DNA from: Aphrocallistes beatrix
Lineage: Eukaryota > Porifera > Hexactinellida > Sceptrulophora > Aphrocallistidae
NCBI GenBank assembly: GCA_963281255.1
Contig: OY725488.1
Location: 744,001 to 808,000, forward strand
Reading direction: 5' to 3'
DNA length: 64,000 bases
Shown here: positions 7,463 through 34,045 of the stretch, one piece after another
Numbering within the stretch: the first letter of the stretch is position 1
Layout: each line of letters starts with the position of its first letter
Notes under the pieces: generated by a model
The model's database searches: none
The model's input: only the letters and a program-made list of their open reading frames with translations
Told to the model about the DNA's origin: nothing
Position numbers and translations under genes: made by a program

Positions 7463-8389
7463 TAATGTTCTGTCTGATGTTCTTTCTATTCCACTACTAA
7501 CTTGACTGTAACTATATTGATAAGTAAATAGTGTCTCTTTTAATACTGTTTATGACAGGTAAGGTTTGATTGGTGATTGGCATTTAGTCAAACATATATA
7601 TTAAAGCTCAATTTTTTTAGTGCAGCTCCTAGTATAGGAGATGCCTTATATCATGATCGGCGTGCGACGTCCGTACGTCAGTCTGCTCGCCTCTGGAAAT
7701 TTAATTGGACCAAATTGCACCAAATTTGGACCATATAATTCTTATATGGTGGAGATTTGAACCTGGGTCCAAATTCCAAAAAAAAATTCACACCCCTTAT
7801 CAAAAGATGCCAATCAGAATCTAGGATTTAACATTACAGTTGGCTTTGATTTTATTGATTAATAGGGATTATACCTAACTCAATGAACATATACAATTTG
7901 GAATCACTCTCTAGCCTATATTAATAATTATTCATATTTTAACACCGTGACTCAAAATGTGACAAATTTGTCGACCAATGAAATTTCAGGGTTTTTATTT
8001 AACAGTACAATTTAATATAACTGGTCAATATGGAATAGACCTGACTCAATACACATAAACAAGTTAGAATCACTCTCTAAACTTGAAATTTGGTTGACTG
8101 AAAGGAAAAAGAATCGTTTGAAGCTAGTCTCTAACTTATTTTTGTAATTTGTTTACTTTATGTATGTATTGTAATCAAAAGTAAACAAATAATTTATCAT
8201 ATCGATAATTATAGAATAATTATATAATTATTATATAATTTTTAAGGGTGTAGATTCCTAATAAAAATACTTTCGATCTTATATTGATAATTCTTTTGAT
8301 ATTTTTATACAATATTAAATGAACAAATTTGAAATGAATTAGTCGAAGTATCAATTATTATCACCCGTAGGGGCTTCTGAATTTTTTGA

Positions 8390-8960
8390 ACATTTCCAAC
8401 GCCCGCAAGGGACTCGCGCTACGCAAGTGCACGAAGCGCGAATGTTTTATACAAATTTAATTTGCGTACTTGCGCAGCGAACACTGTCCGCGAACCCAGA
8501 GTCGCCCAATGGGCGCCTAATATTAATTATTTTCACTAATCCGGATACAAAGTTAAATTCAAAATGAATGAAAGTGACAATGAATGCAACCCCATAATGA
8601 GTAAGCATTTCGATCAATGGAATAATAAAATAGAGAATGTTATTATGTATTTGTGTGTCCATTTTAGTGGTTGTAGAATATATGTATCCCAGGATATCAG
8701 CTTTGTAATTATAATGATTATAGATGCGCCATGATGATGTAATAAAACTGATCATTAGGTTGATGGTGGTAATATCATATTGGGAATGTTATTATACACC
8801 TCTAATTCAAAATTCAACCTTCTATCTCTTATAATGGAAGGGTAGTTATGAAAAAATTGAAATTTCTGATAAAAATGGTGACAATGATGTCATAATTCCA
8901 TGATGAGTTGACAGTTTTGTCTTGGACTTGAACTTGCTCGAACCAGTGAATAATGCGGAA
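8390..8960. repeat. Dispersed repeat family copy 1 (CGCTTCGC/TGACGTCA family)
   Basis: Begins with a GC-rich palindromic head (CGCCCGCAAGGG, GCGAAGC words, GTCCGCG and GGGCGCCTAA) and ends with a tail including GACAATGATGTCATAATTCC and ATGATGAGT. The same head and tail recur at about 32738-33010 and 36160-36540 with many substitutions, so this is an old non-autonomous interspersed element. No coding capacity is seen. Confidence 0.65.
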
Positions 8961-9120
8961 ATCAGCTTTCTGCGACTGGCAGTTTCTTCAATCAATTCGT
9001 TACAGAGCAATGTGTAGTATAAATGCACACACAGATATACAAATAAACAAGTACACATATTGAGTTTTAATAGTTGAGATTAATTTTTTTAATTTCTTTA
9101 GGGAGATTTCAATTTCAAGT

Positions 9121-12100
9121 ATGATGCATCTGATTTTCAAAACAATAATTGTTTTGGGATATCTTTTGGTAAGTATTATACTTATTATTACATAAATTCT
9201 AAGTCGTAAAATAATTTCATATCCTGTTTTAAATAGGGGACAACAAAAGGTACAGGAAATATTTACGTCGATTACGAATATTTTAACACGAGAGGAAGAG
9301 ATAGTGCAGGGGATTATTGTGACCTATACATCTTTTTTTACAACCCATGTGATCCTGTTTTTGATATTTGCCTGAGGTTTGGGCATACTACTGAAGCTTT
9401 TACTTGCAGCTCTTCAAGAATCGAGTATCCTAAAATCCATTCTGGGGAGTATGTGGATACTGATAAACCATACTTTGGTTCAAGTATTGGAGGGACAACC
9501 AACCCAGTTCGTTATCCAACTCCTGACTGGTTTAATGTGAGCAAATTAATTTAATTTAATTTAATATTTTCAAATTTCTTTTTAAAGTAGTATATAATGT
9601 GTCTCAATCCACATTTCATTTAAAGGGACTACACATTTTTTCACATTTTTTCTTCGTTTATTAAAAAATGATTACTACCTGTTTTAGGGATTGTTTGAAA
9701 TATCAATATTTGCCAAAGATGAGGATGGGATTTACTCTGGAGATGACGATATTGATCATGTTTTATTTCGCATAACCGCTTCAATTCGAACTTCATATAG
9801 TCCTGTGTACACCGCCTCTGGGACCCGTGGTTCCTACCCTGCCACTGCTGCAGTTCGGTACAAGTTCTATTGTGACGCCCACTACTACGGGAGCACGTGT
9901 GGAGTCTACTGTCTAGCTCGTGACGATACAAGTGGACACTACTATTGTAATCATCTGACAGGTGCTATCATCTGTTACACCGGATATACTGGACCAAATT
10001 GTGATGTTGGTAAGTCATTATACATCTTTCTAATCCAGCATTACTTAATGCAGTACAAGGGGTGTGTTGAATTTTACCGACTCTCTTCTAGGAACCTGTG
10101 GGACAGGATACGAATGGAACGTTGCACTTCATACGTGTGTAGATGTAAATGAATGTACCAGAGGAACAAGTCATTGCGAACAAACCTGTATCAACAACGG
10201 TGGCTCCTACACTTGCAGTTGTAGTAGCGGCTACCAGCTCTACAATAGTTTCCATTGTAGTGATATAAACGAATGTAGCGCCAATCCATGTGCTGGAACA
10301 TGTACCAATACAGTTGGAAGCTACCAGTGCGCCTGTGGGAATGGATACAGAGTTGATACAACTGATATGAGAATGTGCAATGACATCGATGAGTGCCAGG
10401 AAAGTTTGGATAACTGTGATCATAACTGTGTGAATATCCCTGGTTCATACTACTGCGGCTGCAGATCAGGATATGTGTCAGGCAGTGGCGGTGGATGTGA
10501 TGATATAGATGAGTGCGCTCTGGACACAGATCAATGCGATCAACTTTGTGCGAATACGGTGGGAAGCTACACATGCGATTGCACGAGTAATTATTACCTA
10601 TCCAGTACATATACATGTTCAAGTGTGAACTTCAGTGTTGTTGTAACAGGGACTGTACTGTCCAGTACTTCTATACGACTCGCTTGGACCACCGACTACT
10701 TTCCCTCGTCAAACCCTGTATCCCTCTCCTACCAGGTGTGGTTACGTGACATTACATTCTCAACTGCCACTTCATACACGAACCACGCACAAATAGCAAA
10801 CAATCTACAAGTAGATGCGACCAACTTACTTCCTTACAGGAGATACCAACTCTATATCAGCGCTGTTGGTGGTGTAGCTACCAATGATTCAAATATTGTA
10901 ACACTAAGGACTAATGAAGACAGTCCAAGCACTGGTCCCAGTCACGTGGATGCTGTCGCATTGAACGCAACACACATTCGTGTGTCCTGGTCTGCTCCGA
11001 GCAGAGAAACTCAGAGCGGGATACTCACCACTTACACTCTTCAATACGCCACCTCACAACAGAGACAGATGAATGGAATTGGCAACGAGGTAACCGTCTC
11101 TGCATCCATCACTTCCTATACATTGACAGGATTATCCGCCTACACAGAGTACTGGTTAAGTGTCGCAGCTTCTACTTCGGTGGGAAGAGGACCCTACACC
11201 AACAGGTCCAGTGCTGTTCGCACCTATGAAAGTATACCAACAGCTGCTCCAGTTATGGCCGTCGCTAGCAAAACATCCACTTCCATCACACTCACACTCC
11301 AGCCACCCACCAACACGGCTCTTATCAACGGTGTCATCATATACTACAGCGTATCATTCACTGGGATCAATGTTGACACTAGCACAACAAATTTGAGAGT
11401 GACACCGTCTAGTGGAAATTACCTGTCACCTGTCACTAGCGTACTGAGTCCACTACAAGAAGGTGTTTCTTACAATATTGAGGCTAGCATGTACACGAGT
11501 GTGGGAGGAGGGCCTTCTTCTAACATCCTCACCGTCACAACACAGGAATCAGTTCCTGCTGGTACTCTTCAGAATATCCAATTCACTAGCGTGCAGACTA
11601 CGAGCTTGACTCTTAGCTGGGATCCTCCTCTACTTATGGATCAAAACGGTGTCATATCGGGATATAGACTGTCGTATAGAGGAGTAAGTGTTGATACGGT
11701 GTGGAGGAATTTCACATTAAATACGAACGAAGTCGCGTTGAATAACTTAGCAGAAGGCTGTCAGTACTTGATCTACATCTGTGCATTCACGAGTGCAGGA
11801 GATGGACCTTGTACACGTCTGGTGCATTCGACTCTAGATATTATTCCGTCAGGTGCTCCTGCTATGTTAGCCATTGAGAATGTTGCATCCACATCGATTT
11901 CCTTCTCATGGTCCCCCCCTCCCCCAGCTCAACAGAATGGAGTCATCACAGGTTATAATATATTATCGATTGGACAGGTGCATGATACGGAGAGGTTTGA
12001 GGTGAATGTTAGTGCTACTACTTATCTGTATCAATTGAATGGGTTAGAAGAATATGAGGGTTATTCCATTTTCGTTCGTGCCCGTAATTCCATTGGGTAT

Positions 12101-15100
12101 GGACCTTTTGCTGAGTTAAATGGAACCACAAGTGAAGCTCTACCAAATTCTCCCAAGAATCTAACGGGTAGCTCGGGACAAACCACCATCACTCTCTCTT
12201 GGATGCCGATACCTACAGACCAACAGAACGGCCAGCTGCTTAACTATGAAATAAACCTCTACTCACTAACTCCGTTCATTAGCCACGAGCATGTCCTGAT
12301 CAATGTATCGGATACCAACACACAGCAGACTATAACGGGGCTAGAACAAGCTGTAGAATACATTCTGAAAGTAAGAGCTTATACTTCCATTGGTCCTGGT
12401 CCTTACTCTCTCGAAATCACAGTGACAACCCAACCATCCGAACCATCCAGTGCACCCACTAACCTACAAGCGTTAAGTTTAACTAGCACACAAATACAGG
12501 TCACATGGGACCCACCCTCTGCCATAGATCAGAATGGACCCATCACTCAATACCAGATCGTATTGTCACCATCCTCAACCACCTATGCCACCTCACAAAC
12601 TATTCACACCATCAATGCTCTCCATCCCTACACTCGCTACTCGGTTCAGGTCAGAGCGGAAAACAGTGTCGGAGCAGGGCCTTACACCTCCTCTGTCACA
12701 GTTACCACCAGACAAGCAATGCCATCAGCTCCACCCACACACCTCACACTCATATCTGTCACTCACAACTCTGCTAACGTCTCATGGAGAAGTCCGATGG
12801 ATGATTCACTCAACGGACCATTACAAGGTAACACTCTCAATGTCACCAATACTCTCACATCCACTTCCTTCATCGAGACAGCCACCACTTCTCACACTCT
12901 CCTCGATAGTCTAACTCCTAACACTCGTTACTCACTCATTGTAGCTGCAGTCAACAGTCAAGGAACAGGTCCATATACCTCGGAGCTCTTCTTCTCCACC
13001 CAACAATCCTCTCCAACACAACCACCTCACATCACACAGATCTCTGACGATTCACCTCACAGCATTAGCTTACAATGGAATGCAATTCTTGCACACTTCC
13101 AGAATGGACCCATCCTCTCCTACACAGTCAACATCTCAACAAGTGAGGACGACCTGCTTGTCTCTTCACAGACTGTGCTACACCCCACAACGACTGCTAC
13201 CTTCACCGACCTGCATCCCTATACTGAATACACACTAGCAGTGAGCGGAAACAATGCAGCAGGTACCAGTCCATCCGACTACAGAGCTCACACCACCGAG
13301 GAAGATAGTCCAACTGGAGCTCCCACTTCCCTGTCAGCTGTTCCATCCTCCACTTCAATCACTCTCTCATGGCAGCCTCCTAGCAGCGATTTACAGAATG
13401 GGATCATCATTGAGTATTCCATTCGGTTCCAATCTTCCAACTACGTTACCAACATGACAGAGTACGTGATCACGGGTCTGGAGGAGTTCACAATGTTCCA
13501 GTGGAGTGTAGCTGCTAGGACTAGTATCGGGATAGGACCTTACAGCGATACACAAACTGTGTCTACCCTTGCCAACCCTCCTTCTCAGCCACCTCAGAAT
13601 GTCACAGGCATGGCTCTGACTTACCAATCCATCTTTGTCAGTTGGGATCCCATTCCTCTATTACATCAGAACGGACTAATCCTGAATTGTATCGTTTATT
13701 ACCAGATGGAGGGCGAGAAAGATAATGAATTAAAACAAGAAGTCGACTCAAGAGAGATGAGTACAACGCTCTCGTCGTTAAAACCTTTCCAATCATATTC
13801 GATATATGTTGTGTGCGAGAACACGGAAGGCTCTAGCCCTGAGTCTTCAACTATTTCCGTGATGACACTAGAAGGTTCGCCATCTGCCGCTCCTACTGAT
13901 CTCTTCGTCACCTCAACTTCCTCTACTTCAGCTCGAGTCTCTTGGGTAAGGATTCCTCCCGACCAACAAAACGGCATTCTTGTATACTATGAAATCGTAT
14001 ATCAAGGTCAGACACTGAACACAGCTATACTAACATTCAGAGCATCTGCCAATCAAACTAGCGCTGTTTTGGTCGACTTGCATCCAGCCATCGAATATAG
14101 GGTGTATATCCGTGCATTCACGCAGGTAGGAAATGGTCCTGATTCACCAATATTCACGATAGAACTCCCCGAGTCAATTCCCAATGCTTCACCTACATTC
14201 ATAGACTCTACATCGCAACATGACTCCATTTTCCTGACTTGGTCCCCCGTTAATAATATTGATCAGAATGGCATAATTATTACTTATGAACTCCGCTATT
14301 CCCTCTACAATAGTAACAACTATGAAAATCTAACACACCGCAATGTCAGTGCATCAAGTTTTAACACAACATTCACAGACCTGCTGCCTAACACATATTT
14401 CGAGTTCGAGATTCGAGCTTTTACCAACGTAGGACCAGGTCCTTATTCATCAAAATATTTCATCTCCACTAAGTCTCATATCTGCACGGTGTGTGACAAT
14501 GGTTATTGCGTGCAAGATTTGAACGAGTATTCTTGTGAATGTAACCCCGGGTATACTGGAGAAACGTGTAGTGTTGACATTAATGATTGTATCAGCAATG
14601 AATGTGTACATGGGATTTGTAAGGATGGCATTAACCAATACACTTGTGAATGTAACAGTGGGTACAAGGGGCAACTTTGTGATATTTTGTCGAGCACCCC
14701 CACATGTTCACAGGAAGTTAGTTTGAAATTTGAATGGCCCGAAACAGCTTACGGTTCTAGTGCAGCTCTTCCTTGTTCAGATTTTGATGCAGATTTGCAT
14801 GGTGAAGCTACTCGTGCATGTGATTCGGTTGGAAGTTGGTCTCTCGTTGATTTGTCTCAATGTAAAAGGAAACTGTTTGATACTTTGGATGAATTCGATA
14901 TGGGTTCTGGAGTGGTTGATCTGACACCTGGTGAGATCATTGATTTTATTCAAAACAGGCTTTGCAATGGATCTTTTGGTCCACCATATACACCGGGAGA
15001 AATGGAGGTCCTGGTGAAATTGATCAATGGATTGATCTCCGATATAGAGAGGCAAGACAAGACGATTCGAGTTGAGTTAATTAAAAGAATGATGCCCGGA

Positions 15101-16453
15101 GTTTTGTGTGTTTTATCGAACGTACTTGATGCTGGGAGTTTGGAAATATTTTTACTCTCCAATGCAATGCAACAAGCCATTGCTCTCACTGACCTGATTG
15201 AGAGAATGGCTAAGCTAAATGCACAAAATTTTGACTTTACCTCTCCGCACCCTTTGCTCTATTATCATGAAAACCTTCAAATGTTTGTAGCCCCACTTAC
15301 TAACAAACATTCCGCTACTATTCCAGACTACGAACTTGCTGCTGCAAAAGATACAGGTCTTTATCCAGACAGTGTTTACATTCCTGAGAGCGAAGTATCT
15401 GCTTTGTTTTCAAAAGCTAATGGAGACACGCCGGTCATTACTCTAGTTTTCAGTCGGTACCTAGGACAGGCATTGGGTTCACCTTCCGCGTCAAGTTTCA
15501 GTACGAGAGTGATCACTGTACAAAGTAGCATAGAGAAACCACTTGATTTCACATCTCCCATCACTCTGACCTTCACTTTATTCCCAGTTGCTTTTTCACC
15601 CGTAAAATCTAACTGTGTGTATTGGGATGTTAATGCGGAGGATTGGAGCAGCTCAGGTTTAAATCTCGAATTGGAGCAATCTGATCATGTTAGCTGCTCC
15701 AGCGTCCACGCGACTAGCTTTGCAGTACTTTCTAGTAAATCTTCTGTGGTAGCTATAGCTAGCGCACAAAATAATTTGATTTTGGGAGTCGGAGCTGCAA
15801 CCAGTGTAGTTTTATTACTAATTTTTGCTATAGTATTCTGCTTCCTGATTATTTGTTTGTGTCGACTGCGCCAAAGTAGGAAAAAAGCAGCTATACGAGG
15901 ATATTCTCGGAGACAGTCACAAGACGGTGTCCTTAATGTTCAGAATTCGGTCCCAAATCCCTTGTATGGCCATGTTGATAATGCACTTGGTCTTTTTAAG
16001 CATCCTACTAAAGGAACCTACAGTTCATTAGATTTGGATAACAAAGACAAGGATTTTTACTACTCAAAATTAGATCCAGACCTTGACAAAGATGCTAAAA
16101 ATAAAGACACAAATACTCATCGAGACGAAAATGTTTATTCGACTATAAGTTCTGTGGCTTACGATGATAACGCTTACTCAGAAATTGTACCAGACCCTTC
16201 TCTCAACCCTTTTATAGATATATCCTTCGATAAACGTGAGAAAAACGAAACTATCTCAGGAATAAATCATCATCCATTTGATGTTGCGTCGATTCCCAAA
16301 ACTAGCGGAGACAAGGCTGGAATAGAAAATCCGATTTACAACTCCCAACCGATCCATGCTCATTCTTCCCAGCCCATGGAAGAATCGACCGAACCTTTAT
16401 GCTCCAGGATCTCAAGAGTAATGGAGTCCTCAGAAAATGATAGTTCATGTTAA
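9121..16453 (+). CDS. DSL-EGF-FN3-GAIN/GPS single-pass receptor (Delta-like/adhesion-GPCR chimera)
   Basis: Four coding exons are inferred: 9121-9168 (signal peptide MMHLIFKTIIVLGYLL), 9237-9536, 9688-10009 and 10092-16453, all with GT..AG junctions and a continuous frame, about 2343 residues. Exon 2 encodes an MNNL-like domain (FNTRGRDSAG, CDLYIFF, CDPVFDICLRFG). Exon 3 ends in a DSL domain (YKFYCDAHYYGSTCG, RDDTSGHYYC, CYTGYTGPNC), the Notch-binding module of Delta/Jagged. The last exon encodes about four calcium-binding EGFs (DINEC/DIDEC), 13 FN3 domains (10625-14480), two EGFs, an HRM-like domain (14700-14870), a GAIN-like region, a GPS (CVYW..CSSVHATSFAVL, 15610-15745), one membrane span (about 15772-15860) and a roughly 200-residue tail with NPLY, NPFID and NPIY motifs. 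The GAIN/GPS region is homologous to that of the convergent GPCR gene at 21594. It could act as a membrane-anchored Notch ligand with a GPS (inference). Confidence 0.9.
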
Positions 16454-16990
16454 TCCCTTTTTTTACTATCATTTTATATAAATGTACAAACACCCTACCC
16501 TGTATTATTTAGACTATAGTTATGATGTACACTGTAGGTGTGCATCTTTTTGATGAATTATCTTTTTACCTATTGACTTTTTGATGATGTGTCTTTTTAT
16601 TGATACATTGTATTGTTGTATGAACGTGAAGCATAACTATAGTAGAGTGTAACTAGTATGTGGTGGGAATGCAAGAAATAACAATTAAGAACTACGAAGA
16701 TCCTTTTAAAAAGGGAGGTGATGTTATTGAAATAGCCTAGATAACCGCAAGTAATCGCCACTTCTAGTGCATTTACCAATTGCAATACATAATCAGTGGT
16801 TAGCAAGTGAACCGCTAACTACTGACTATTTATTGCAATTGGAAACTGCCACTAGAAGTAGCGATAACGGTTCTCTAGGCCATTTCCGTAACCTATTTAT
16901 TGTATTTGGATTATGTATCTTGTGATGTTTTTATATGACTATGTTATGTACTCATTTGAAATCTAGATTCATTCAGTATATTTCACAGAT
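16454..16990. other. Intergenic interval with a hairpin element
   Basis: 3' flank of the DSL/FN3 gene and 5' flank of the tau-like gene. The only structure seen is the inverted repeat at 16723-16892. The tract TATATTTCACAG just before 16989 could be a splice acceptor, so the tau-like gene may have an upstream exon here. Confidence 0.5.
16723..16892. mobile_element. Short inverted repeat (MITE-like hairpin)
   Basis: Two arms of about 75-80 bp are imperfect reverse complements. The left arm contains CCAATTGCAATACATAATCAG and the right contains CTGACTATTTATTGCAATTGG. Outer ends are GTTATTGAAATAGCCTAG and CTAGGCCATTTCCGTAAC. The loop is about 10 bp near 16803-16812. It has no coding capacity, and no clear target-site duplication was found. 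Confidence 0.7.
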
Positions 16991-17896
16991 ATGCTAAATA
17001 ATATAATAAAGAATGAGAATACTGGCCAAATAAGCGTTGTCCGAACTGAAAAATCTCGAGCATCATTTTTACCACGACCAATACGTGCTGTGTACCCTGA
17101 ACACGATTTTTCTCTCCCTGATAAATCTTCATGTTACACCCCAACGCAAGAGGATACAAATTTTAAGAAGAAATCCAAATCTTTCTTTAACGATAGGGAG
17201 AGTAAAACAACTCGTCATCACATCCCAGGAACTTTGTTAGGAGGCAGAAGAGTGTTCCACTCATCAGTGGATGTCTCGCGCATAAGTTCCAGGATAGGAT
17301 CCTTCGACAACATCTCACACCAACCTCAAGATAATGACATCAAGATTTTTCATGAGAAGCCTACCTATACCCATGTTGGACCAACCATTGCCACACAAAG
17401 TAAGGCATTCACGTTAAAAACCAGTCCCGATGAGAAAGAGAAAGTCTTCCACCAAAAATTAGATTACTCCCATGTGACTCCACTTGTGCCTTACAGGGAC
17501 AACGAACTCCATTCTCCTGGAGGTGGCAATGTAAATATTCCCAATCAAAAGTTGAACTTTAGAGAGACAGCGAAGCCAAAAATTGAGGCTAGATCCAGCT
17601 ACCAAACCAAGTTATCTGAGATAAGTATTCCCATTCATAAGCTTAGGTTCAGAGATTCTGCGGCAACTAGGATTGACTCAAGAAGAAACCTTGGTTTGCA
17701 GGAAATACCTAAGAATACGCGGCATCTAATTGACCTCTTGACAGTAAGTCTGCCAGACCTACGGAAGGAGGTTGGCGAGCTTCAGGTTAGCAAATATCAC
17801 CCCGACCACTTAAACATCCCTTCCATTCCACCGTCCCAATTAGGTTGTGAAGAGACTGAAACTAATCCAGGAGAACCAAAAGATAACGAGTTATAA
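16991..17896 (+). CDS. Tau/MAP2/MAP4-like microtubule-binding protein
   Basis: A 301-residue, basic, low-hydrophobicity protein in one exon; an upstream exon is possible because an AG acceptor-like sequence precedes the ATG. Two stretches resemble the tubulin-binding repeats of tau-family MAPs. Residues about 92-112 read VDVSRISSRIGSFDNISHQP, like the SKxGSxxNIxHxP core. Residues about 153-203 contain the spacer SPGGGN followed by KLNFRETAKPKIEARS, like the [20 protein letters not shown] segment that ends the tau repeat domain. A further degenerate unit follows at about 213-231 (IPIHKLRFRDSAATRI). The N-terminal projection region is short. Tau-family proteins bind along microtubules and stabilise them. 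The two large receptors flank this gene, with no visible functional link. The call rests on motif recognition, and the repeats are divergent. Confidence 0.72.
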   Translation: MLNNIIKNENTGQISVVRTEKSRASFLPRPIRAVYPEHDFSLPDKSSCYTPTQEDTNFKKKSKSFFNDRESKTTRHHIPGTLLGGRRVFHSSVDVSRISSRIGSFDNISHQPQDNDIKIFHEKPTYTHVGPTIATQSKAFTLKTSPDEKEKVFHQKLDYSHVTPLVPYRDNELHSPGGGNVNIPNQKLNFRETAKPKIEARSSYQTKLSEISIPIHKLRFRDSAATRIDSRRNLGLQEIPKNTRHLIDLLTVSLPDLRKEVGELQVSKYHPDHLNIPSIPPSQLGCEETETNPGEPKDNEL

Positions 17897-19183
17897 CAGG
17901 ATATTCGACTTTATGATAATCTCAATTCGTTTAGTCTTATTTTATTCATTTCCCGCAAACATTTTATCTCGATTTTTAGTCGCTGAATTTGGTTATTTGG
18001 TACTACTAAATATATTTTACATTTTACAATCATTTTGAAAAATATTATTTTCAGTTTTTATCGATGAACATGACTAAGCAAGGAGGAAGTCGTGCGTGTA
18101 ACCTAACATACCAAATTCAGAATTTGTGATTCTTTTAGTTTAATAAATATCAGGTGCCATGATATTTATTTTCAAAATCTCTTTTCAGGTTTTGATTCAT
18201 CACTGGGTTTATAATTTTTCTTTATCTTGAGACCGCTAGAAATTGCTTCTGGATGCCAATCTGAGAAATAATATCTGGTCCGCAGGCTGGAAAATAATAA
18301 TATATTTGTATTCCAGAAGTTTGGTTGTATAACTTTACATTCCCAAAACATTATTGCCATTTTAGATTCTTAATATTTATCCCAATGTAGTAGATTCGAT
18401 TAGACATTAGTTACGAGCCAAGGATCAAACAATTCAATGGTTTAGGAAACACTAATAATATTTTGGTTTAATTATTGGCTACCGTTAACTAATACAACTT
18501 CAACAATGTTTTTGCATGTGCTATGCAATATCGCTTAATAAACGAATGTGATGATGGTATACATGGATATCCTTTTTTCACAGATTGTTTTGGAACTCTG
18601 TTCGATGAATTAGTCAAAGAAGAGTGTCCATATAAATTGCCCCTCAAAGATGTGCATAGGCATACCGTTCATCATTTAATTTTATTCCTAATCAAGCTAT
18701 AAATTTTTTTATTTTCCTTATTTATATCCAAAATATTTTTTCTGTACGTGTACTACTAAACAGGGTTTTGTGGACACATATCAGGTGGGGTGTCAAGTTC
18801 TCATATCCGAATCCCCAAGTCTTTAATGATTAAAACGTTTTTGTCAAGTTGTGTTTGATTTTCTCAGTAAAAAACGCCCACTCTCTCAAAGCTCCGATCT
18901 CGGGCGCTAAGTCTATTCCGTACATGCCAACCGTTTCGTTTTGGCGGGACGTCCCGCTTTTTTCACTCTTCTTTTGAGCTAATTTTCACGAGTGTCCCAT
19001 TTTTACATGAAATTTCCCCATTATATCCCGCTTCTTTTATTCCATGTATATTACTTTTCTATTGTGTCCCGTCATGTCCCGCGAAATTCAACGCTGCGTT
19101 CCGCTATTATCATGGCTATGGTCTATGCTAAGTCAAAATATTTCTAGATTAGTAAAGAAACTAGTTCAGTATCGATCAACAAA
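17897..19183. other. Gene-free interval upstream of the EFHC1-like gene
   Basis: No gene was recognised. The segment 18890-19100 is rich in GTCCCG/TCCCGC words (GGCGGGACGTCCCGC palindrome near 18952-18966; TGTCCCATTTT; TATCCCGCTTC; GTGTCCCGTC). It contains ACATGCCAACC, whose reverse complement lies in the hAT-like element at 35497-35868, so it is probably a decayed transposable element sitting next to the promoter. Confidence 0.5.
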
Positions 19184-20824
19184 ATGTCTCTTCCCTTCCT
19201 TCCTGGCAATACATTCACTGACCCCTGCAAGGATAAGTTCCATGTATCCCAATCCCTGGGATACAAGAACGGCTACCCGCTCACTAAGCTCTCAGCTATA
19301 GGAATTGGAGGCGAACCACACCCAGTTTCCAGTGCTGACCAGATGTCCGCAGCTGAGTTTGAAGAGATAGCCCAGATGAAACCAACGATCACTTACGGGG
19401 ATCCAGCGCCCGACCATCCTGTCCAATTTGTGCCAGCTCACGTCGCTTTTGACAAGAAGGTCCTCCAATTCAAAGCTTTCTTCAACCAAACAGTGCTTGA
19501 GTCAGCGGTGGAAGATTTTCGCGTGCGTTTTGTGAAGATATACTATTACCTGGAAGATGACAGCATCTCTGTGGTAGAGCCAGTTGTTGAGAATTCTGGC
19601 ATTCCGCAAGGCAAACTCATCAAGCGACAGAGACTACCTAAAGACGAACTAGGACAGATTTGGCACTGGAAAGACCTGAACTTAGGGATCGATGTCCATT
19701 TCTATGGAACAAGTTTCCACGTCTATGACTGTGATGATTACACTCGAAATTTCATGGAGAGTGAAGGCATGGACCTGAATCTGCCTGAGGGCTGTCCCGA
19801 CGACCCCTACACGCAGTGCCGAATGGCGGCACATTACTCCTATCAAACGCCAGCTGCCTTTGATAAGCTGAAACAGTTCTTGGATATGGACAGGAAGGTG
19901 CTGAGGTTCTTCTGTGTCTGGGATGATCGAGACAATATGTTCGGTGAGATGCGCAAGTTTGTCCTGCACTACTACCTTGTGGACGACAGCATTGAAGTGC
20001 TGGACATAAGACAGACGAATGACGGAAGAGACCCTTACCCTGTGTTTCTAAGGAGACAGCGTCTCCCGAAAGATCGGTCGGAGATATCTAAAGACTTCCC
20101 CGGAGTCGTTCTAGAACTGACTGACCACGAGGTGGCTGACTGGTACACGCCTGCCGACCTGAGGATTGGCAGGAGGGTGGATGTGCTGGGGAGGAGATTT
20201 CTACTCTACGACTGTGACAACTTCACCAAGGAATACTACCGCGTAATATACAATGTGCAGGATTTCACACCTCTGGATATAGACACCCCCCAATCCAGTC
20301 TAAGACAGCCGCAGTTGCCGCCTTACAACGGCTACGGTACAATCGAGGATTCGATACAGAACTGCCGCTCCCTCATCCCGCAGCCCCCTAAGAAGGACTT
20401 CATACGGATGCTCGAGAATGACGGGAAAGTCCTGCGATTCTCTGCCTCGATGGTTTCCAAGTTTCCAGAGGATAAAAACCGCAAATTTATCATTTCCTAC
20501 CGCCTATCCGACGACATGTTCACTATTTACGAGCCTCCTCAAAGAAATGCTGGTATAATCGCGGGGAAATTTCTTGAGCGGACCCGAATCAAGAAACCGG
20601 ATTGCGACCCCCAGAACCCGGAATTCTACGGACCTCAGAATCTCATTGTGGGTGAGACGATTCGGGTGTTTAGTCACAAATTCTTGATAGAAGACGCTGA
20701 CCATTACGTGCTCAAGTACATGGAGGAGCATAGTGAGGAGTTTCCTCCTGAGACAATTGAGGCTTTGAGGAAGAAACACGCGCCAGAAAATGCTCCTGAA
20801 GATGGCACTGCCTCAAACTCTTAA
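19184..20824 (+). CDS. EFHC1: EFHC1-like ciliary protein, three DM10 domains
   Basis: A single-exon protein of 546 residues. The N-terminus LPFLPGNTFTDPCKDKFHVS, the segment HVAFDKKVLQFKAFF, and VVENSGIPQGKLIKRQRLPK closely match EFHC1. Three DM10 domains lie at about 75-190, 225-345 and 400-510. The second ends in YDCDNFTKEYY and the third in IEDADHYVLKYMEEHS. EFHC1-type proteins are microtubule inner proteins of motile-cilium doublets, binding protofilaments of the A-tubule. Human EFHC1 has about 640 residues with an EF-hand region at the C-terminus. This protein stops about 30 residues after the third DM10 domain, so that region is absent. EFHC2 is an alternative, but the N-terminal signature favours EFHC1. 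Confidence 0.93.
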   Translation: MSLPFLPGNTFTDPCKDKFHVSQSLGYKNGYPLTKLSAIGIGGEPHPVSSADQMSAAEFEEIAQMKPTITYGDPAPDHPVQFVPAHVAFDKKVLQFKAFFNQTVLESAVEDFRVRFVKIYYYLEDDSISVVEPVVENSGIPQGKLIKRQRLPKDELGQIWHWKDLNLGIDVHFYGTSFHVYDCDDYTRNFMESEGMDLNLPEGCPDDPYTQCRMAAHYSYQTPAAFDKLKQFLDMDRKVLRFFCVWDDRDNMFGEMRKFVLHYYLVDDSIEVLDIRQTNDGRDPYPVFLRRQRLPKDRSEISKDFPGVVLELTDHEVADWYTPADLRIGRRVDVLGRRFLLYDCDNFTKEYYRVIYNVQDFTPLDIDTPQSSLRQPQLPPYNGYGTIEDSIQNCRSLIPQPPKKDFIRMLENDGKVLRFSASMVSKFPEDKNRKFIISYRLSDDMFTIYEPPQRNAGIIAGKFLERTRIKKPDCDPQNPEFYGPQNLIVGETIRVFSHKFLIEDADHYVLKYMEEHSEEFPPETIEALRKKHAPENAPEDGTASNS

Positions 20825-21593
20825 ATGTTAAGATGACGCGACTGTTAACTAGCTTATCTCCTAATATTTAACCCGTAACACTTGTATCTGAACTGTGACA
20901 CGTATTATCATTCTATTTATAGTCATATCCGAAGCTTGGTCTTATGATAGCATCGACTTACACTGTTGACACTTTATTGTTAATCCGGTTAGTGTGGCTG
21001 ATGCACAATAATGGTTTTAATGTGATTTAGATTTTACAGTTCAATCACTTGAGCCCTTTAGAGCTTGTCAGGTTTGTTTTTAATTAAGCGGCTTAATATG
21101 AGCACATCTTAAAGTGGCCCAGGGGTTTGTTTTTCTCGATTATCTGTTAAATCTGATTGTTGAGTAATAAGAGTTTAATAATTCTCTACTTTTTTATTGG
21201 GTTTATTGGTTCAAACCTAAAAGAATCCAAATTTTGTTGTTATGGTAATTCAATGATCGATGAATCATATCAAAGCTTTTAGTTAATTGAAACAAATTCA
21301 CCTTATTATCTAGACTACTTTTCGCACGATCCATCCTATCATTAGATTGGAAATTGTTTTTTTTCAGTTTAATTTTTTATCTCAAAAAGCAAACAACCAA
21401 CAACTATACAATGATAATACATAATAACATAAAAACTTAATTTTCTCCACACACAGTTTTCGATTAATATAAATTATAGAGCAAACAAACATTTAAGAAA
21501 TATACAGATATGTCCTAAACCCAGGCTAGACTAGGTTTGGCTATGGGGAAGGGGAGAGGAGAAAACAACTAAGTTAAGGGGTAGCTTAAGATA
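20825..21593. other. Convergent 3' flanks, no gene seen
   Basis: AT-rich interval between the EFHC1-like gene and the end of the minus-strand adhesion GPCR. It presumably contains both 3' UTRs. No RNA gene, repeat or open frame of note was recognised. Confidence 0.5.
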
Positions 21594-24500
21594 TTACGCA
21601 TCAGTTCCACTGTCAGAATCATCGCCTGACATTCGGTCAGCTCCAAAGTTTATGATGCCCTCCACTACCTGGTAACAAGGATTCTCTTGACTGAATCCTT
21701 GTTCGGCGTAAGACTGTTCGGAGAGGAGCTTTTCTTTTGCTTCCTTTTCGTCATGGATATCATAGGACATTTCAGAAGTGCAGGAGATTTTCGCTTCTGC
21801 AAACCCATTTTCAGTGAATGGATTCATCTTTGACATTCCCACCTTTTGTGAAGTATCTTTTTCAAGTTCATCAATGCCAGCAGGTTCAGTAAACGGATTA
21901 GCACGATCGTTTTCATGAATTTCCATATAAGGATTGTCCTCTGCCATAGGTGGCATTTTCTCCATGCTTTGGTATGGACTTTCTTTAGAAACATGCATTT
22001 TTGAAGTAAAAGTTAGACTAGAATGTCCTTTTTGTAAATCTAGATTGTCCTTGTATTCGTTTTCACTAAATATCACCTCGTAGGGATCTTTAAAATCTGA
22101 TTTTTTACATTCCATATTTTCCGTGTCGAAAAGTGGGTTGACGTAGTCAGACTGTATCACGGGGTTAATGTTGAAGTCATCACGTGTGCGACCTCTTTGC
22201 GACCCATTATTGTTTGGTGGATCTTGCAAGTCACCAGACTTCCGTTTAAGTTTGAATAATTGAGTTCTCACAGATCTGTTTCCAATGACGTAAAAAATGA
22301 AGAAAAATAGTCCTTGCAATGCGTAAGAAATGGGGAAACCCCATTTATAGAATTGGTATGGAAAGAAGAAATTAACAAGGCTCATTCCCCAAGGCACAGT
22401 TGTCACTACTACCATCAACAATAGCCCAAACACAGCACTCCTTGCATCGACATACCATTCTGCTTTAGGTCTCGATGTAGATATTCGACAAATAGTGTAC
22501 AAGGACAGGATTAGGATGACCAGATTCGTTCCTAATATTGGACCTGCTATCAACCAAAAGGTGAGAGTATCCTCAGATAACCAACAGTATTTATTATCTA
22601 CCCCATAATCGGACCACTTAACCCCTGCTACAGGGGCGACAACAATCAAAGGTAACAGCCAGCCACTAACTAACATGATTGGTATTGTACGTCTCAGTTT
22701 CACTTTGGCATGTAACATGTAGATGATTTGTACCGCATTACACAAGGACCAGGACAATGATGCGAATGCGAAGTATTGGAATGCAACCGCGAATATTTTG
22801 CATAAAATCGGAGGTAGCTTTTGAGTACCAAGAACACAGAAAATAAGAGCGAATGTTAGCGCTATTCCCAGATTGAAATGTATCAGGAAGAGATCTTTTT
22901 TCAACAGTGTTTTCCCTAACAGAATCAGCATTAACAAGGATGCGATCATTGAAAGGAGCGAAACCAACGCAAGGGCATACGTTATGATACTGTCTATCAA
23001 ATAATCTTCTTCCTTGAGTGGCAATGGGACTGCTTGGGAGGATAAAAGGATTGCAAAGCTGGTAGCATGACTGCTGGCACAGGTTATCGTGTTGTCCCCC
23101 CTGGTGGCAATATGCATTCCTTCATCACTCCAATTCCCTCCGTTCCATGACGAGCATACTGCCCTGAGTGTGCTATTGTACGGTGGGAATATCCAGTATT
23201 TGAGATTAATAGGATCCGTGAATGTGAGATGATCCTCCATATTGCTCTGTACAGTGATCACTCTGGTACCAATATTGAATGATGAATCAATAAAATGCAT
23301 CCCCATCACTTGCCCAATGTACCGATTGAACACCAGAGCTATAACCGGCGTGTTTCCATTGGCTTTCGAAAACAAAGCAGAAACTTCGCTCTCAGGAATG
23401 TGGACACTATCTGGATAAAGTCCTGTATCTTTTGAAGCCGCAAGATTGTAGTTTGGAATAGAAGCGGATTGTTTGTTAGTAAGAGGCGCTATAAACATCT
23501 GAATGTTTTCATGGTCAAACGTTAAAGGTTCTGTGGTTTTGGATGTGTCAAAGTTTTGTGCATTCAACTTGGCCACTCTTTCAACCAATTCATTGAAGAT
23601 AATCACTTGGGCAGTAGAATCTGTGTTGTGAAATATCTCAAGGTTTCTGGGATTTATGATACGGGAAATCACACATAGAACTGCTCGTGTAATCATTGGA
23701 ACCGTTACAGCTTGCGTAGTTTTATCTTGAAGCTCAATTGACTCAACCAAATTTGTCAACACCTGAGCAATTACAGATATTCCGTAAGGGTAAAACGTAG
23801 GGTTTGAACCTTCGTTGAATTCGCTGTTGTTACATATTATTTCTTCCATTCGATTTGACAGAGTCTCAGCAACAATGGGAGAGAGTTCAGGTGATTGTTT
23901 AGTTTGGTTCTTGAATTCTATTTCTAGTTCTTCAAAGGTTGGACGAGTGCAATTGGAGATGTCCAATTTGCCCCAATTTCCTTCTTTAGTACACATTCTT
24001 GTCGCTATCCCGATTAGGTCTGACTTAGCATCTTTACAAGGCACGGTTACACTCGTACCCTGTTTTGTCTCGTCCCATTTAAATCCTACCAACTCTTGAC
24101 TCTCACAAGTGTTGGCTGTTACCTTAATTTCACAATAAGTGCCCCTGTATTCTTCAGAACAGTCGCATGTATATTCATTGACACCATCGATGCACTCCCC
24201 ATTCTCACAATCATTGTCTTTACAGTCATCAATGTTACTTTCACAATGGTTCCCTTCATAACCGAGCTCACAAGTACAATTGTACACGTTATTCTCCCAC
24301 GAACAAGATCCGTGGACGCAAGGAGACGAGGAACAGGTGTTAAAGTATTGGCAATAAGTTCCATTGTAGTTGGGGAAACAAGAACACGTATACTCTTCAA
24401 GGCCGTCTACGCATGTACCATTTTGACAATTGTGTTGTTCACAATCATTAATATTGTCTTGACAATGCTCTCCTGTAAATCCAGCGTCACAAACGCACAT

Positions 24501-27500
24501 GTATCCATTAATCTGGTCAACACATCTGCCATTTGTACCACAATGGTTTATTTCGCAATCATTTATATTCGTATAACAGACCGGACCTGTGTAACCTGGC
24601 ACACATTGGCAATCATAAGGAATATCCCCACCCGAAAGACATGTTCCGTTGTTATGGCAAGGATTGTGGAAATATTGGTTGTAATAGCTGTAACACTGTA
24701 TCAGCTCTGGTGCTGTTGTTCCGGTGAAGACATCCGAATATGGTCCAGGACCAACTGCAGTGTAACTTCGTACACGGATCTCATACATTGTCCCCACTGC
24801 CAAACCATTCAGCGTTACATTCAGTGCTACTAGACTCGAGTTTTGATAGGATGCAGGATTGCTGTTATTAGTATCTGAGAGTGAGTATGTAACTTCGTAT
24901 GCAATAATGTCTCCGTTGGTTTCACTCTGACTAACTGCATTCCAAGCTACGAAGATGTCAGTGGTGGAAACAGCATCAATTTGTTGAATCCTGGGCGAAC
25001 CTGAAGGAATGGATTCTGGAAGGAGTATGTCTACACTTGGTGAGTTCGGTCCATTTCCGACATTGGTCAACCCACGAACAAACACTGTGTACTGAACATT
25101 CGGATGTAAATCGAGTAACATTCCTGAAGTGGCATTGCCTGGTGTAGTGAGTTTACTCTGAACAACATCGAACTCATTTCCGTAAAATATGATTTCATAA
25201 TTAATGAGATAGCCATTTTGTTCGCGACCAGGGATCGCAATCCAGTTAGCTGATATGGATGTTGGAGATGTGTACTGGGCAGTGAATCCTGTGGGGGCAA
25301 CCGATGGTGTTCCTTCAAAAGTGGTTACAACAAGTGTTGGAGATCGAGGACTGGAACCCTGACTATTTTCAGCCACGACACTTATCTTGTAGTTTTCGAA
25401 GGGTTTCAGATGTCTAAGGATTATTGAAGTTGTGTTTTCTGGTTGAACTATTTTCCCTTCACTGACATCATATTTTCTTCCTTCGAAGTAAACAATGTAA
25501 TTAATGATGATACCGTTCCTATGTGCAGGAGGAACTGCTTCCCAACTGACAAAGATGGATTGGTCAGACAGAGCCATGCCTGTGACATTCTGAGGTGGCT
25601 GAGAAGGAGGGTTGGCAAGGGTAGACACATTTTGTGTATCGCTGTACGGTCCTATTCCGATACTAGTCCTAGCAGCTACACTCCACTGGAACATTGTGAA
25701 CTCCTCCAGACCCGTGATCACGTACTCTGTCGTGTTGGTAACGTAGTTGGAAGATTGGAACCGAATGGAATATTCAATGATGATCCCATTCTGTAGATCG
25801 CTGCTAGGAGGCTGCCATGAGAGAGTGATTGAAGTGGAGGATGGAACAGCTGACAGGGAAGTGGGAGTTCCAGTTGGACTATCTTCCTCGGTGGTGTGAG
25901 CTCTGTAGTCGGATGGACTGGTACCTGCTGCATTGTTTCCGCTCACTGCTAGTGTGTATTCAGTGTAGGGATGCAGGTCGGTGAAGGTAGCAGTCGTTGT
26001 GGGGTGTAGCACAGTTTGTGAAGAGACAAGCAGGTCGTCCTCACTTGTTGAAATGTTGGCTGTGTAGGAGAGGATGGGTCCATTCTGGAAGTGTGCAAGA
26101 ATTGCATTCCATTGTAGGCTAATGCTGTGAGGTGAATTGTCAGAGATCTGTGTGATGTGAGGTGGTTGTGTTGGAGAGGATTGTTGGGTGGAGAAGAAGA
26201 GCTCCGAGGTATATGGACCTGTTCCTTGACTGTTGACTGCAGCTACAATGAGTGAGTAACGAGTGTTAGGAGTTAGACTATCGAGGAGAGTGTGAGAAGT
26301 GGTGGCTGTCTCGATGAAGGAAGTGGATGTGAGAGTATTGGTGACATTGAGAGTGTAACTTTGTAACGGTCCGTTGAGTGAATCATCCATCGGACTTCTC
26401 CATGAGACGTTAGCAGAGTTGTGAGTGACAGATATGAGTGTGAGGTGTGTGGGTGGAGCTGATGGCATTGCTTGTCTGGTGGTAACTGTGACAGAGGAGG
26501 TGTAAGGCCCTGCTCCGACACTGTTTTCCGCTCTGACCTGAACCGAGTAGCGAGTGTAGGGATGGAGAGCATTGATGGTGTGAATAGTCTGTGAGGTGGC
26601 ATAGGTGGTGTTTGAAAGTGTAGATGAGGATGGTGACAAGACGATCTGGTATTGAGTAATGGGTCCATTCTGATCTATGGCAGATGGTGGGTTCCATGTA
26701 ACCTGTATTTGTGTGCTAGTTAAACTTAACGCTTGTAGGTTAGTGGGTGCACTGGATGGTTCGGATGGTTGGGTTGTGACTGTGATTTCTGAAGAGTAAG
26801 GACCAGGACCAATGGAAGTATAAGCTCTTACTTTGAATTGGAATTCTGCATATTCTTGCAAGTTTTCGATGGTAATGGTATTTTGTGATGCTGACACATT
26901 AGCTACTTTTTGCTCGATGGATAAGAAATCAGATGTGGAATAATATTCTATTTCGTAATACCTTAGTATTCCATTCTGATATTGGATAGGTGGTGGATTC
27001 CAGTGCAGAGTAATGGTCGTTTCGGTGGAATTTGCGGTCAGGTTCATTGGGGCGGCTCCAGTTGCAGCTTCTAACGTTATTATTGTAACAATGGTTGTGA
27101 ATGGTCCAAATCCAATAGCGTTCATCGCTCTCAGCTTGATGTTGTAAGCGTGTGACTCTTCAAGATTTTCAAAAGTATAGGAAAGCATATTTTCGTTTAG
27201 CCTTGTTTTATATTCATTTGTGTCGTGCTGTTGTCCAACTGCGATAACTTCGTAGCCAGTAAGTATCCCATTTCGAAGTGGGAGAATCGGAGCTTCCCAG
27301 GAAAGAGTTATGGTGTTAGCAGTTATGGCTTGTATCTGTACATTGGTTGGAACGCCTGTTGGAATTGTCTCAGAGGTGAAATTCATCCACTGGATACATG
27401 GTCCTATGGAAATAGTCATAGCACAGACTTGAATGCTGTATTCTGCTCCTTCCTCTAAATCTGTTAGCGTAGCTGTGTTGTTAGTGGTCGTAATAACTGT

Positions 27501-33500: not shown

Positions 33501-34045
33501 ACAACACATCGATCATGGACAGATCAATGCTCAGATTTTAAAAATAACTTTTCTTGATATTAAAAAGCATTTCTAGTAATGAAGTTTCCTTACATCGCTT
33601 CTCCATTTTAATTTTCACCAAATACGTATAAATTATTTAACCTAGTTTCCCATATTATAATTTATTTTTTAAACGTTACGGAGCTGAATAATAACGATGA
33701 CTGAGCATTTAAGATTATGATGCTACTTTCAGTTTGTGAGGAATGATAATATACACCTGCGATTCAAATATGAAACTCTTAATGCGAAATCTTGCATTTA
33801 ATGTATATTTAGCTTACCAGATGAAAGTACTTTTAAATCTGTTTCGTCATGGGTTGATCCCTATACGGAGCCATAATATAAATATGGTGATAGATTTTAG
33901 AAACATAATATACTCATTTACTATCATCAATTTGAATAAGTTAAAATAAATTCCGAGTATGTAGTATACTTATTCATAATGGTGACCTTACCCATACAAT
34001 TCCGATTAGAACAAATATTGTAATGAGATGAATGACCAATTTCAT
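21594..34045 (-). CDS. Giant adhesion GPCR: EGF, 21 FN3, 5 EGF, HRM/GAIN/GPS, 7TM
   Basis: The main exon 21594-31411 (about 3270 residues) is preceded by an EGF-type exon at 31708-31853 whose last bases join in frame. From the N-terminus the main exon encodes four calcium-binding EGFs (30940-31411), 21 FN3 domains (about 24710-30930), five EGFs (about 24115-24700), an HRM-like domain (CTKEGNWGKLDISNC, about 23940-24105), a GAIN-like region, a GPS (CSSWNGGNW..CASSHATSFAIL, about 23040-23150), seven hydrophobic spans (about 22250-23000) and a cytoplasmic tail of about 220 residues. Family-B2 hallmarks are the TM3 segment CKIFAVAFQYF with SWSLCNAVQIIYM, and KYCWLSEDTLTFWL before TM5. The tail has NPLF, NPYM, two NPFTE and NPCYQ motifs. 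A signal-peptide-like exon, MKLVIHLITIFVLIGIVW with a GTAAGG donor, lies at 33992-34045. The exon joining it (about 33240-33400) is unresolved because reading frames do not connect simply. No DSL domain was found. Confidence 0.88.
32738..33010. repeat. Dispersed repeat family copy 2, inside an intron
   Basis: Within the 5' intron of the adhesion GPCR. It starts with CAAGCGCGTTTCGCTTGCTT, passes GGCGCCTAGGCTCACATTGA and TGATGCGTAATGATGACGTC, and ends in TA-rich sequence at about 33000. It is a close relative, in the same orientation, of the copy at 36160. Confidence 0.8.

Follow-up and report, generated by a model that had tools for sequence, protein, structure and literature searches.

The window analyzed here is a stretch of 64,000 nucleotides from the genome of the glass sponge Aphrocallistes beatrix (GenBank assembly GCA_963281255.1, contig OY725488.1, positions 744,001 to 808,000 of the forward strand), and coordinates refer to it unless another contig is named. 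At 9121-16453 on the plus strand it holds a gene that we call A (the letters A, B, C, D, E, F1, F2, and H are names coined in this analysis). Our splice model, made from sequence, joins four exons across three GT-AG introns in phases 0, 0, and 1 into a single open, stop-free protein of 2,343 amino acids. A preliminary description of the locus had reported a signal-peptide-like start, MNNL-like and DSL exons spliced in frame to EGFs, 13 fibronectin type III (FN3) domains, HRM, a GAIN-like region, GPS, and one membrane span, and all of these were found in this interval. Exon 1 (9121-9168; donor GTAAGT, phase 0) encodes the 16-residue signal-peptide-like sequence MMHLIFKTIIVLGYLL. The signal peptide is a call by eye, however: it can be seen in exon 1, but this hydrophobic start is absent from the list returned by a 19-residue hydropathy scan. 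Exon 2 (9237-9536) encodes the N-terminal half of a Delta-type MNNL (C2) domain and ends in phase 0, and exon 3 (9688-10009) encodes the C-terminal half of MNNL together with the DSL domain (9871-10005) and ends in phase 1. An intron of 82 bases (GT-AG, 10010-10091) separates the DSL exon from the EGF-bearing exon 4 (10092-16453), which is one open frame up to the stop and contributes 2,119 residues (2,134 codons from stop to stop). This large frame is without a signal peptide of its own, and by eye its first methionine falls inside an EGF. If the 82-base intron were retained, the reading frame would stay open, yielding a predicted MNNL-DSL protein of 270 amino acids. The intron within MNNL has the same position and phase in the Delta gene E and in genes C and D, and the intron after the DSL is matched in place and phase by E. 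For three of the six DSL matches in the genome, one of the four open reading frames of the family described below follows on the same strand within 4 kb; by arithmetic the chance of this is ~1e-11, with the 4-kb margin and the set of four frames picked post hoc. A is most likely one gene.

The DSL domain of A scored 46.6 bits against PF01414 in the scan of the protein (E value of 4e-12; cut-off of 24.2), and a DSL call that might have fallen with a failed hidden Markov model match therefore held. The domain was recovered again in a scan of the whole genome (9871-10005; 50.7 bits), where it was one of six matches, all above the cut-off, and it keeps the six cysteines and the YYG motif (CDAHYYGSTC). 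When the head was compared with PDB sequences by phmmer, Drosophila Delta (7alk) aligned with residues 9-202 of its 203 residues (6.2e-14), in an alignment that takes in both MNNL and DSL and crosses the exon 2/3 junction, and DLL1 aligned with residues 74-201 (1.6e-11). All 12 of the matches listed were Delta, Delta-like, Jagged, or Serrate proteins. An MNNL/C2 domain ahead of the DSL is thus found in A through the alignment to 7alk, even though the Pfam MNNL model is negative. That model gave three matches in the whole genome, at Delta genes, with none at A. Papers are cited here in excerpt, by PubMed Central (PMC) number. In the excerpts from PMC5684314 and PMC2770060, the MNNL model fails on sponge Deltas except for one Amphimedon copy, while the cysteines are retained.

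Beyond the head, exon 4 encodes four stretches of calcium-binding EGF_CA repeats (approximately 10142-10630), a block of 13 FN3 domains (approximately 10631-14480), and a second EGF block (approximately 14480-14690), all found with Pfam. These are followed by an HRM (hormone receptor) domain (14702-14866; PF02793, 29.0 bits, cut-off of 26.2, 1.4e-6), a GAIN domain (14984-15496; PF16489, 33.7 bits, cut-off of 26.5, 3.1e-8), and a GPS (15611-15730; PF01825, 40.5 bits, cut-off of 22.5, 4.1e-10) with H-A-T at 15707-15715 and CVYW upstream. A scan restricted to this region places the last three above their curated cut-offs, and none is listed when the whole 2,119-residue exon is scanned at E ≤ 0.1. 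The check with profile models proposed in the preliminary description returned DSL and FN3 from the protein and GAIN, together with HRM and GPS, from this region by itself, with the MNNL model silent. A four-row profile (A, B, C, and H) matched latrophilin-3 (1.4e-24) in an alignment running from HRM into the first span; adhesion G protein-coupled receptors (GPCRs) account for all 20 listed matches. The nearest solved GAIN is that of latrophilin for the four-row profile and that of ADGRF1 for A alone.

Only one membrane span follows the GPS (15806-15862, from hydropathy and the model). The 19-residue scan found one strong segment (score of 3.54; residues 2129-2147), succeeded by basic residues, and one weak segment inside GAIN (1.82). 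A secretin-type seven-transmembrane (7TM) domain after the GPS is present in B, C, and D but not in A, and a tblastn search of window positions 8000-21500, with the B and C 7TMs as queries, showed no 7TM remnant (best E value of 5.2). The cytoplasmic tail (15863-16450; 196 residues) contains NPLY and NPIY and two pattern matches that resemble immunoreceptor tyrosine-based activation motifs (ITAMs), YSSL-x10-YSKL (16019-16072) and YSTI-x9-YSEI (16136-16186). In 20,000 shuffles of the tail the mean number of such ITAM-like spacings was 0.03, with at least 2 in 0.12%, for motifs that were sought only after the tail had been read. The tail is weakly similar to that of gene B (0.005). From these data, we regard the architecture of A (Delta-type head, EGF, FN3, HRM/GAIN/GPS, and one span) as almost certainly real.

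Two other genes in the genome carry Delta-head exons before an EGF/FN3/GPS/7TM frame, namely, C (contig 19, 2171747-2151791, minus strand) and D (contig 19, 2398554-2386550, minus strand). In each, an exon pair (N-terminal MNNL half, phase 0; C-terminal MNNL half with DSL, phase 1) lies upstream of a long EGF/FN3/GPS frame that opens with a phase-1 acceptor, and the DSL matches (63.3 and 60.6 bits for C and D, respectively, in the genome scan) are on the same strand and in fitting phase. The large exon of D encodes 12 FN3, 10 EGF_CA, a GPS (3e-7), and 7tm_2 (2.1e-12), and C has a GPS (8.2e-9) and 7tm_2 (51.8 bits); the 7TMs of D and C both appear in the genome scan for 7tm_2 (52.6 and 51.8 bits, respectively). 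The large frame of C (contig 19, 2167348-2151791) runs uninterrupted for 5,186 codons and includes a big internal duplication of the EGF-FN3 block. A and C are collinear from MNNL through DSL into the EGFs (residues 20-403 of A with 4-394 of C; 35% identity; 2e-55) and also along the stalk.

The fourth member, B, has the stalk most closely related to that of A and is an inverted paralogue of it in the window (21594-34045, minus strand; exons 34045-33992, 33860-33818, 33435-33249, 31853-31708, and 31411-21594). Its head exons splice in phase, and it encodes a signal-peptide-like start, an EGF-like head, EGFs, 20 to 21 FN3 stretches, further EGFs, HRM, GAIN, GPS, and a secretin-type 7TM. Pfam detected no DSL in its head, and a profile comparison aligned just 14 residues at the end; a degenerate DSL was considered and dropped, given only those 14 residues and a sub-cut-off EGF_DL_JAG match in Pfam. 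The Delta-like genes of the genome are E (contig 13) and F1 and F2 (contig 19, about 3.42 Mb), in which no FN3 was seen by eye in the stretches read, and H (contig 11) is an adhesion GPCR. A single gene combines two LNRs with EGFs and ankyrin repeats and is a Notch; the other LNR pair sits in a different protein. The NOD model matched nothing in the genome; since NOD was not detected in sponges, according to an excerpt (PMC6040629), this null is uninformative and the LNR model was used instead. No relatives of the head alignment were found among bacterial and archaeal contigs, the set searched beyond this genome.

Separately, a weak DSL exon (19 bits; cut-off of 24.2) was observed about 320 bases upstream of an AbfB-domain frame (8.5e-26) on contig 11 (3496378-3497551). 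Among the 134 7tm_2 matches in the genome, a dense cluster occupies about 4.94-5.89 Mb of contig 4, with many partial copies and some with stops.

To relate the members, trees were built from a set of 12 loci from which L015, overlapping L014, and L021, consisting of EGFs alone, had been removed, out of a listing of 95 matches, many of them EGFs alone. The ten-row GAIN tree groups A with B (support of 93/97) and C with D (100/100), and the nine-row 7TM tree groups B, C, and D (95/93). Over HRM-GAIN, the ratio of nonsynonymous to synonymous divergence (dN/dS) between A and B is 0.30 (354 codons). In the FN3 blocks, in contrast, A and B are 88% and 95% identical over 876 and 1,346 alignment columns; near-identical FN3 beside a GAIN with dS of ~1.8 suggests gene conversion between these inverted paralogues. 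In the C and D pair, dS is ~0.30 just before the DSL (52 codons) versus 0.07 over HRM, GAIN, 7TM, and tail (815 codons), which may reflect either faster divergence of the head or its escape from conversion. The dN/dS of C versus D is 0.75 for the head (183 codons) and 0.49 for the DSL alone (46 codons); because the codons are few and dS varies fourfold along the gene, we make no claim of selection on the head.

Compared with known systems, A is divided between two families. Like Delta/DLL and Jagged/Serrate, it has a signal-peptide-like start, the MNNL-DSL-EGF order, and a single span, but those ligands have only EGFs (and VWC in Jagged) between DSL and span, where A has 13 FN3, a second EGF block, HRM, GAIN, and GPS. 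Like adhesion GPCRs of the latrophilin (ADGRL) type, it has the HRM-GAIN-GPS order, the H-X-S/T triad, and an EGF/FN3 ectodomain, and it differs from them by its one span, the lack of a 7TM, and the DSL head. In PKD1, too, the GPS precedes a membrane span; however, no PKD or REJ domain is in the Pfam list for A, and the GAIN of A pairs with that of the adhesion GPCR B. A direct sign that the two families are linked comes from Caenorhabditis elegans, in which, in the excerpt from a 2025 paper, the latrophilin LAT-1 binds the DSL ligand LAG-2 in cis through its RBL and GAIN domains and the two jointly tune Notch on the sending cell (PMC12255766). LAT-1 and LAG-2 are two proteins, whereas A has both modules in a single chain. 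Unusual DSL genes in cnidarians consist of DSL domains alone or of MNNL plus three DSL (Gazave et al.; PMC2770060). Within the open-licence literature, supplements aside, we found no report of a Delta-headed adhesion GPCR and no paper that brings "adhesion GPCR" and "DSL domain" together; DSL passages in the excerpt of an adhesion GPCR review concern LAT-1/LAG-2 (PMC13197933), and the main texts of an Amphimedon GPCR survey and a 2025 choanoflagellate survey never mention DSL. Since the search covered open-licence texts rather than predicted eukaryote proteins, an unremarked database entry for such a protein may exist.

Because the stalk belongs to the adhesion GPCR family and because C and D have Delta-head exons together with a 7TM, the better interpretation of A is a Delta-headed adhesion GPCR derivative that lacks the 7TM. 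The preliminary description had seen a Notch-ligand-like protein that bears a GPS; its domain order stands, but the relatives B, C, and D reverse its polarity. With the head of a Notch ligand on a receptor stalk and relatives with seven spans, two signaling systems appear to be fused in one molecule. In the history that we propose, and that we consider very probable on the basis of sequence, an EGF/FN3 adhesion GPCR acquired exons, in phases 0, 0, and 1, from a Delta gene; duplication then would have given rise to A, which kept the head and lost the 7TM, and to B, which kept the 7TM and in which the DSL was lost or worn away, with C and D keeping both. An ancestor with head and 7TM, followed by 7TM loss in A and DSL loss in B, is the simplest course of events, although A may instead have acquired its head later.

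How such proteins might work is a more tentative matter, and we put the following mechanism forward as a possibility that falls short of even probability. Gene A would encode a type I cell surface protein whose head, on a long stalk, reaches the neighboring cell and contacts Notch or another EGF-rich partner. In C and D, tension on the engaged head would tear the N-terminal fragment away at the GPS, leaving the tethered agonist free to act on the 7TM, such that the ligand-bearing cell receives a signal upon engagement of its ligand. In A, the GAIN joint, if cleaved, would couple the head to its anchor only up to a limiting force; that anchor has one span and carries tyrosine motifs of the NPxY and ITAM-like types. 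Given this anchor and these motifs, engagement would be handled through endocytosis or tyrosine phosphorylation and not through G proteins, and the link would cap the force that can be exerted on the partner. For the statement as a whole (A as a 7TM-less member of the Delta-headed family, acting as proposed), our confidence is moderate, with most weight placed on the parts that the sequence shows.

Several observations weigh against this statement and are gathered here, beginning with the head. The Pfam MNNL model finds no match in A at E ≤ 0.1. The Notch-binding face of Jagged1 consists of F199, R201, R203, D205, and F207 (PMC3415683), and the F207A change drops binding to Notch-1 to background (PMC3888931). 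At these five positions A has Y, L, R, D, and S, with two unlike changes (201 and 207) and the equivalents of R203 and D205 kept. C and D, in contrast, have Y, R, R, D, and Y. Of the three Delta genes, E and F2 were used in this comparison and F1, hand-joined like F2, was left out: E has F, I, Q, and S plus an insertion before FG, which puts the letter Q at 207 out of register, and F2 has F, V, R, D, and G. By this measure the predicted face is nearly complete in C and D, which surpass E and F2 in this respect, and partly kept in A. The Delta-type MNNL/DSL head that suggested a Notch ligand is thus present in A, but with two of the five contact residues unlike, among them the F207 position, Notch binding by A is less certain than the preliminary description implied. 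Nevertheless, the changed face is no proof of lost function, since an excerpt on Amphimedon (PMC3482393) likewise describes a lack of conservation at the sites through which bilaterian DSL domains bind.

Cleavage at the GPS is likewise qualified. The cleavage motif is H-X-S/T, its histidine held by a stacked Phe or Tyr, with a Gly-Cys motif and flexible flaps assisting (PMC13062082). A has HAT, a Tyr at the stacking site, and the Gly, but it has lost the Cys; C and D have HLS, Tyr, and the Gly, again with the Cys lost. B has HAT but a Ser at the stacking site, like BAI2, which resists cleavage. BAI2, with HLS, is uncleaved in its crystal structure, so the triad is not proof of cleavage. The stacking residue was assigned as the one before W in CxxW by a spacing of 33 residues, which assumes equal spacing in latrophilin-1 and -3; a position in the strand ITLTF was rejected, since F803 and H836 of latrophilin-1 are 33 apart, in latrophilin-3 fitting the F of CSFW. 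Seven GPS that were counted carry two cysteines, and by eye the three others of the ten tree rows look alike (69 GPS matches in the genome in total). Because these sampled GPS share two cysteines, the loss in A may be a local habit. The self-cleaving module suggested for A is therefore borne out in its HAT triad and aromatic partner but not in the Gly-Cys motif, and self-cleavage is plausible.

Other adverse points concern the stalk, the tail, and the relatives. Compared alone with PDB sequences, the HRM-GAIN-GPS region of A matched six, four of them ADGRF1 (best E value of 9.4e-8, in two weak stretches) and two parathyroid hormone receptor at HRM. Its AlphaFold model is poor (mean predicted local distance difference test score of 49.7); Foldseek with this low-confidence model gave six matches at E ≤ 0.001, all GAIN structures, with query TM-scores of 0.26 to 0.34. 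The ITAM-like and NPxY motifs are pattern matches. Pfam's GAIN model returns nothing for C or D, the HRM of C scores 25.2 against a cut-off of 26.2, and HRM and GAIN go unlisted at E ≤ 0.001 in the large exon of D. A search of ~4 kb upstream of C and D for a hydrophobic ATG exon with a phase-0 donor did not identify their signal-peptide exons: C offered two candidates, with 2174738-2174688 the stronger, and D a single poor one in each of two scans with different settings, and no candidate was conserved between the genes. The head-to-stalk introns are also wide (3.8 kb in C and 3.3 kb in D), and the join in these two genes consequently is deduced from phase and from likeness to A. In the GAIN tree, the A+B fork (93/97) falls short of the mark of 95 set by the tree tool, and an open fork joins A+B, C+D, and C8+C10, leaving the tree by itself unable to unite A to D. 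The tool also warned of long branches, the 7TM of B among them, and dS between A and B over HRM-GAIN (1.77) is near saturation.

The alternative that survives best, although we think it unlikely, is that A serves simply in adhesion or recognition. Its head, no longer tied to Notch, would bind another surface partner or, through its C2-like MNNL, phospholipid, with GAIN/GPS as no more than a structural hinge. The altered residues 201 and 207, the miss by the Pfam MNNL model, and FN3 blocks that turn over through conversion and duplication would all suit such a protein. It accounts less well for the retention in A of all six cysteines of the DSL and of residues equivalent to R203 and D205, and for the Notch face of the siblings C and D; moreover, the Delta genes E and F2, presumably Notch ligands, are no better conserved at that face. 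We give a still lower probability to A as a cis partner or decoy, titrating Notch or, on the same cell, pairing with Delta or with one of B, C, and D, the 270-residue form being a secreted MNNL-DSL decoy. The cis binding of LAT-1 to LAG-2 through GAIN and RBL (PMC12255766), the change at the F207 position, and the open reading through the 82-base intron are consistent with this role, for which a long, motif-rich cytoplasmic tail would be superfluous. It is very improbable that A descends from a 7TM gene as a degenerating copy whose last domain was lost by accident: the 7TM is gone, and B, which ends 5 kb away, has near-identical tracts in common with A, but a frame of 2,134 codons is open, dN/dS against B is 0.30 over HRM-GAIN (with dS near saturation), and the strong span is followed by basic residues and a tail weakly like that of B. 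Finally, exons 9121-10009 as a separate Delta-like gene beside a headless GAIN gene, for which the failed Pfam MNNL model speaks, were rejected as next to impossible on the mere 82 bases of intron, the phases, the missing second signal peptide, the recurrence of like exons in the same phases before the same type of frame in C and D, and the low odds of chance adjacency.

If the Delta-headed adhesion GPCR reading is true, its consequences would reach beyond this gene. Notch ligands and adhesion GPCRs have mostly been treated as separate systems, and here they are seemingly one polypeptide; a genome that places both in one chain would be independent evidence for an old or repeatedly useful partnership. 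The arrangement makes it possible to ask whether a cell that presents a Notch ligand has a receptor of its own activated when that ligand is pulled, in which case Delta-Notch contact would signal both ways. Natural variants separate the parts, with head plus 7TM in C and D, head without 7TM in A, and 7TM without DSL in B. In its boldest form, which we regard as doubtful, the proposal is that a sponge lineage fused a Notch ligand to an adhesion GPCR, making C and D force-activated ligand-receptors and A, its receptor half replaced by one span with tyrosine motifs, a Notch ligand with a mechanical fuse in two-way Delta-Notch signaling.

Elsewhere in the window, a VWA-like exon and many single FN3 exons extend by eye from 56598 to 63949 on the plus strand, reaching the window end, and two successive sets of tubulin-like frames were seen by eye on the minus strand (44110-45188 and 48162-49533). 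On contig 11 (3542049-3545873), a single-frame adhesion GPCR encodes EGF, GPS, 7tm_2 (1.4e-28), and a C-terminal tyrosine-kinase-like domain (PF07714; 2.2e-52); sponge and choanoflagellate GPCR-kinases are discussed in the excerpt of PMC12716839. Contig 28 is mitochondrial, and 10,000 of its 17,996 bases were read. Long single-exon genes and the lack of a Wnt match in the genome, from a scan whose control also matched nowhere, suggest a glass sponge, as does codon use. Glass sponges read mitochondrial AGR codons as serine. Consistent with this, AGR codons in cox1 of contig 28 stand by eye at conserved serine sites, and an excerpt of PMC10695373 speaks of "a distinct mitochondrial genetic code" in glass sponges.

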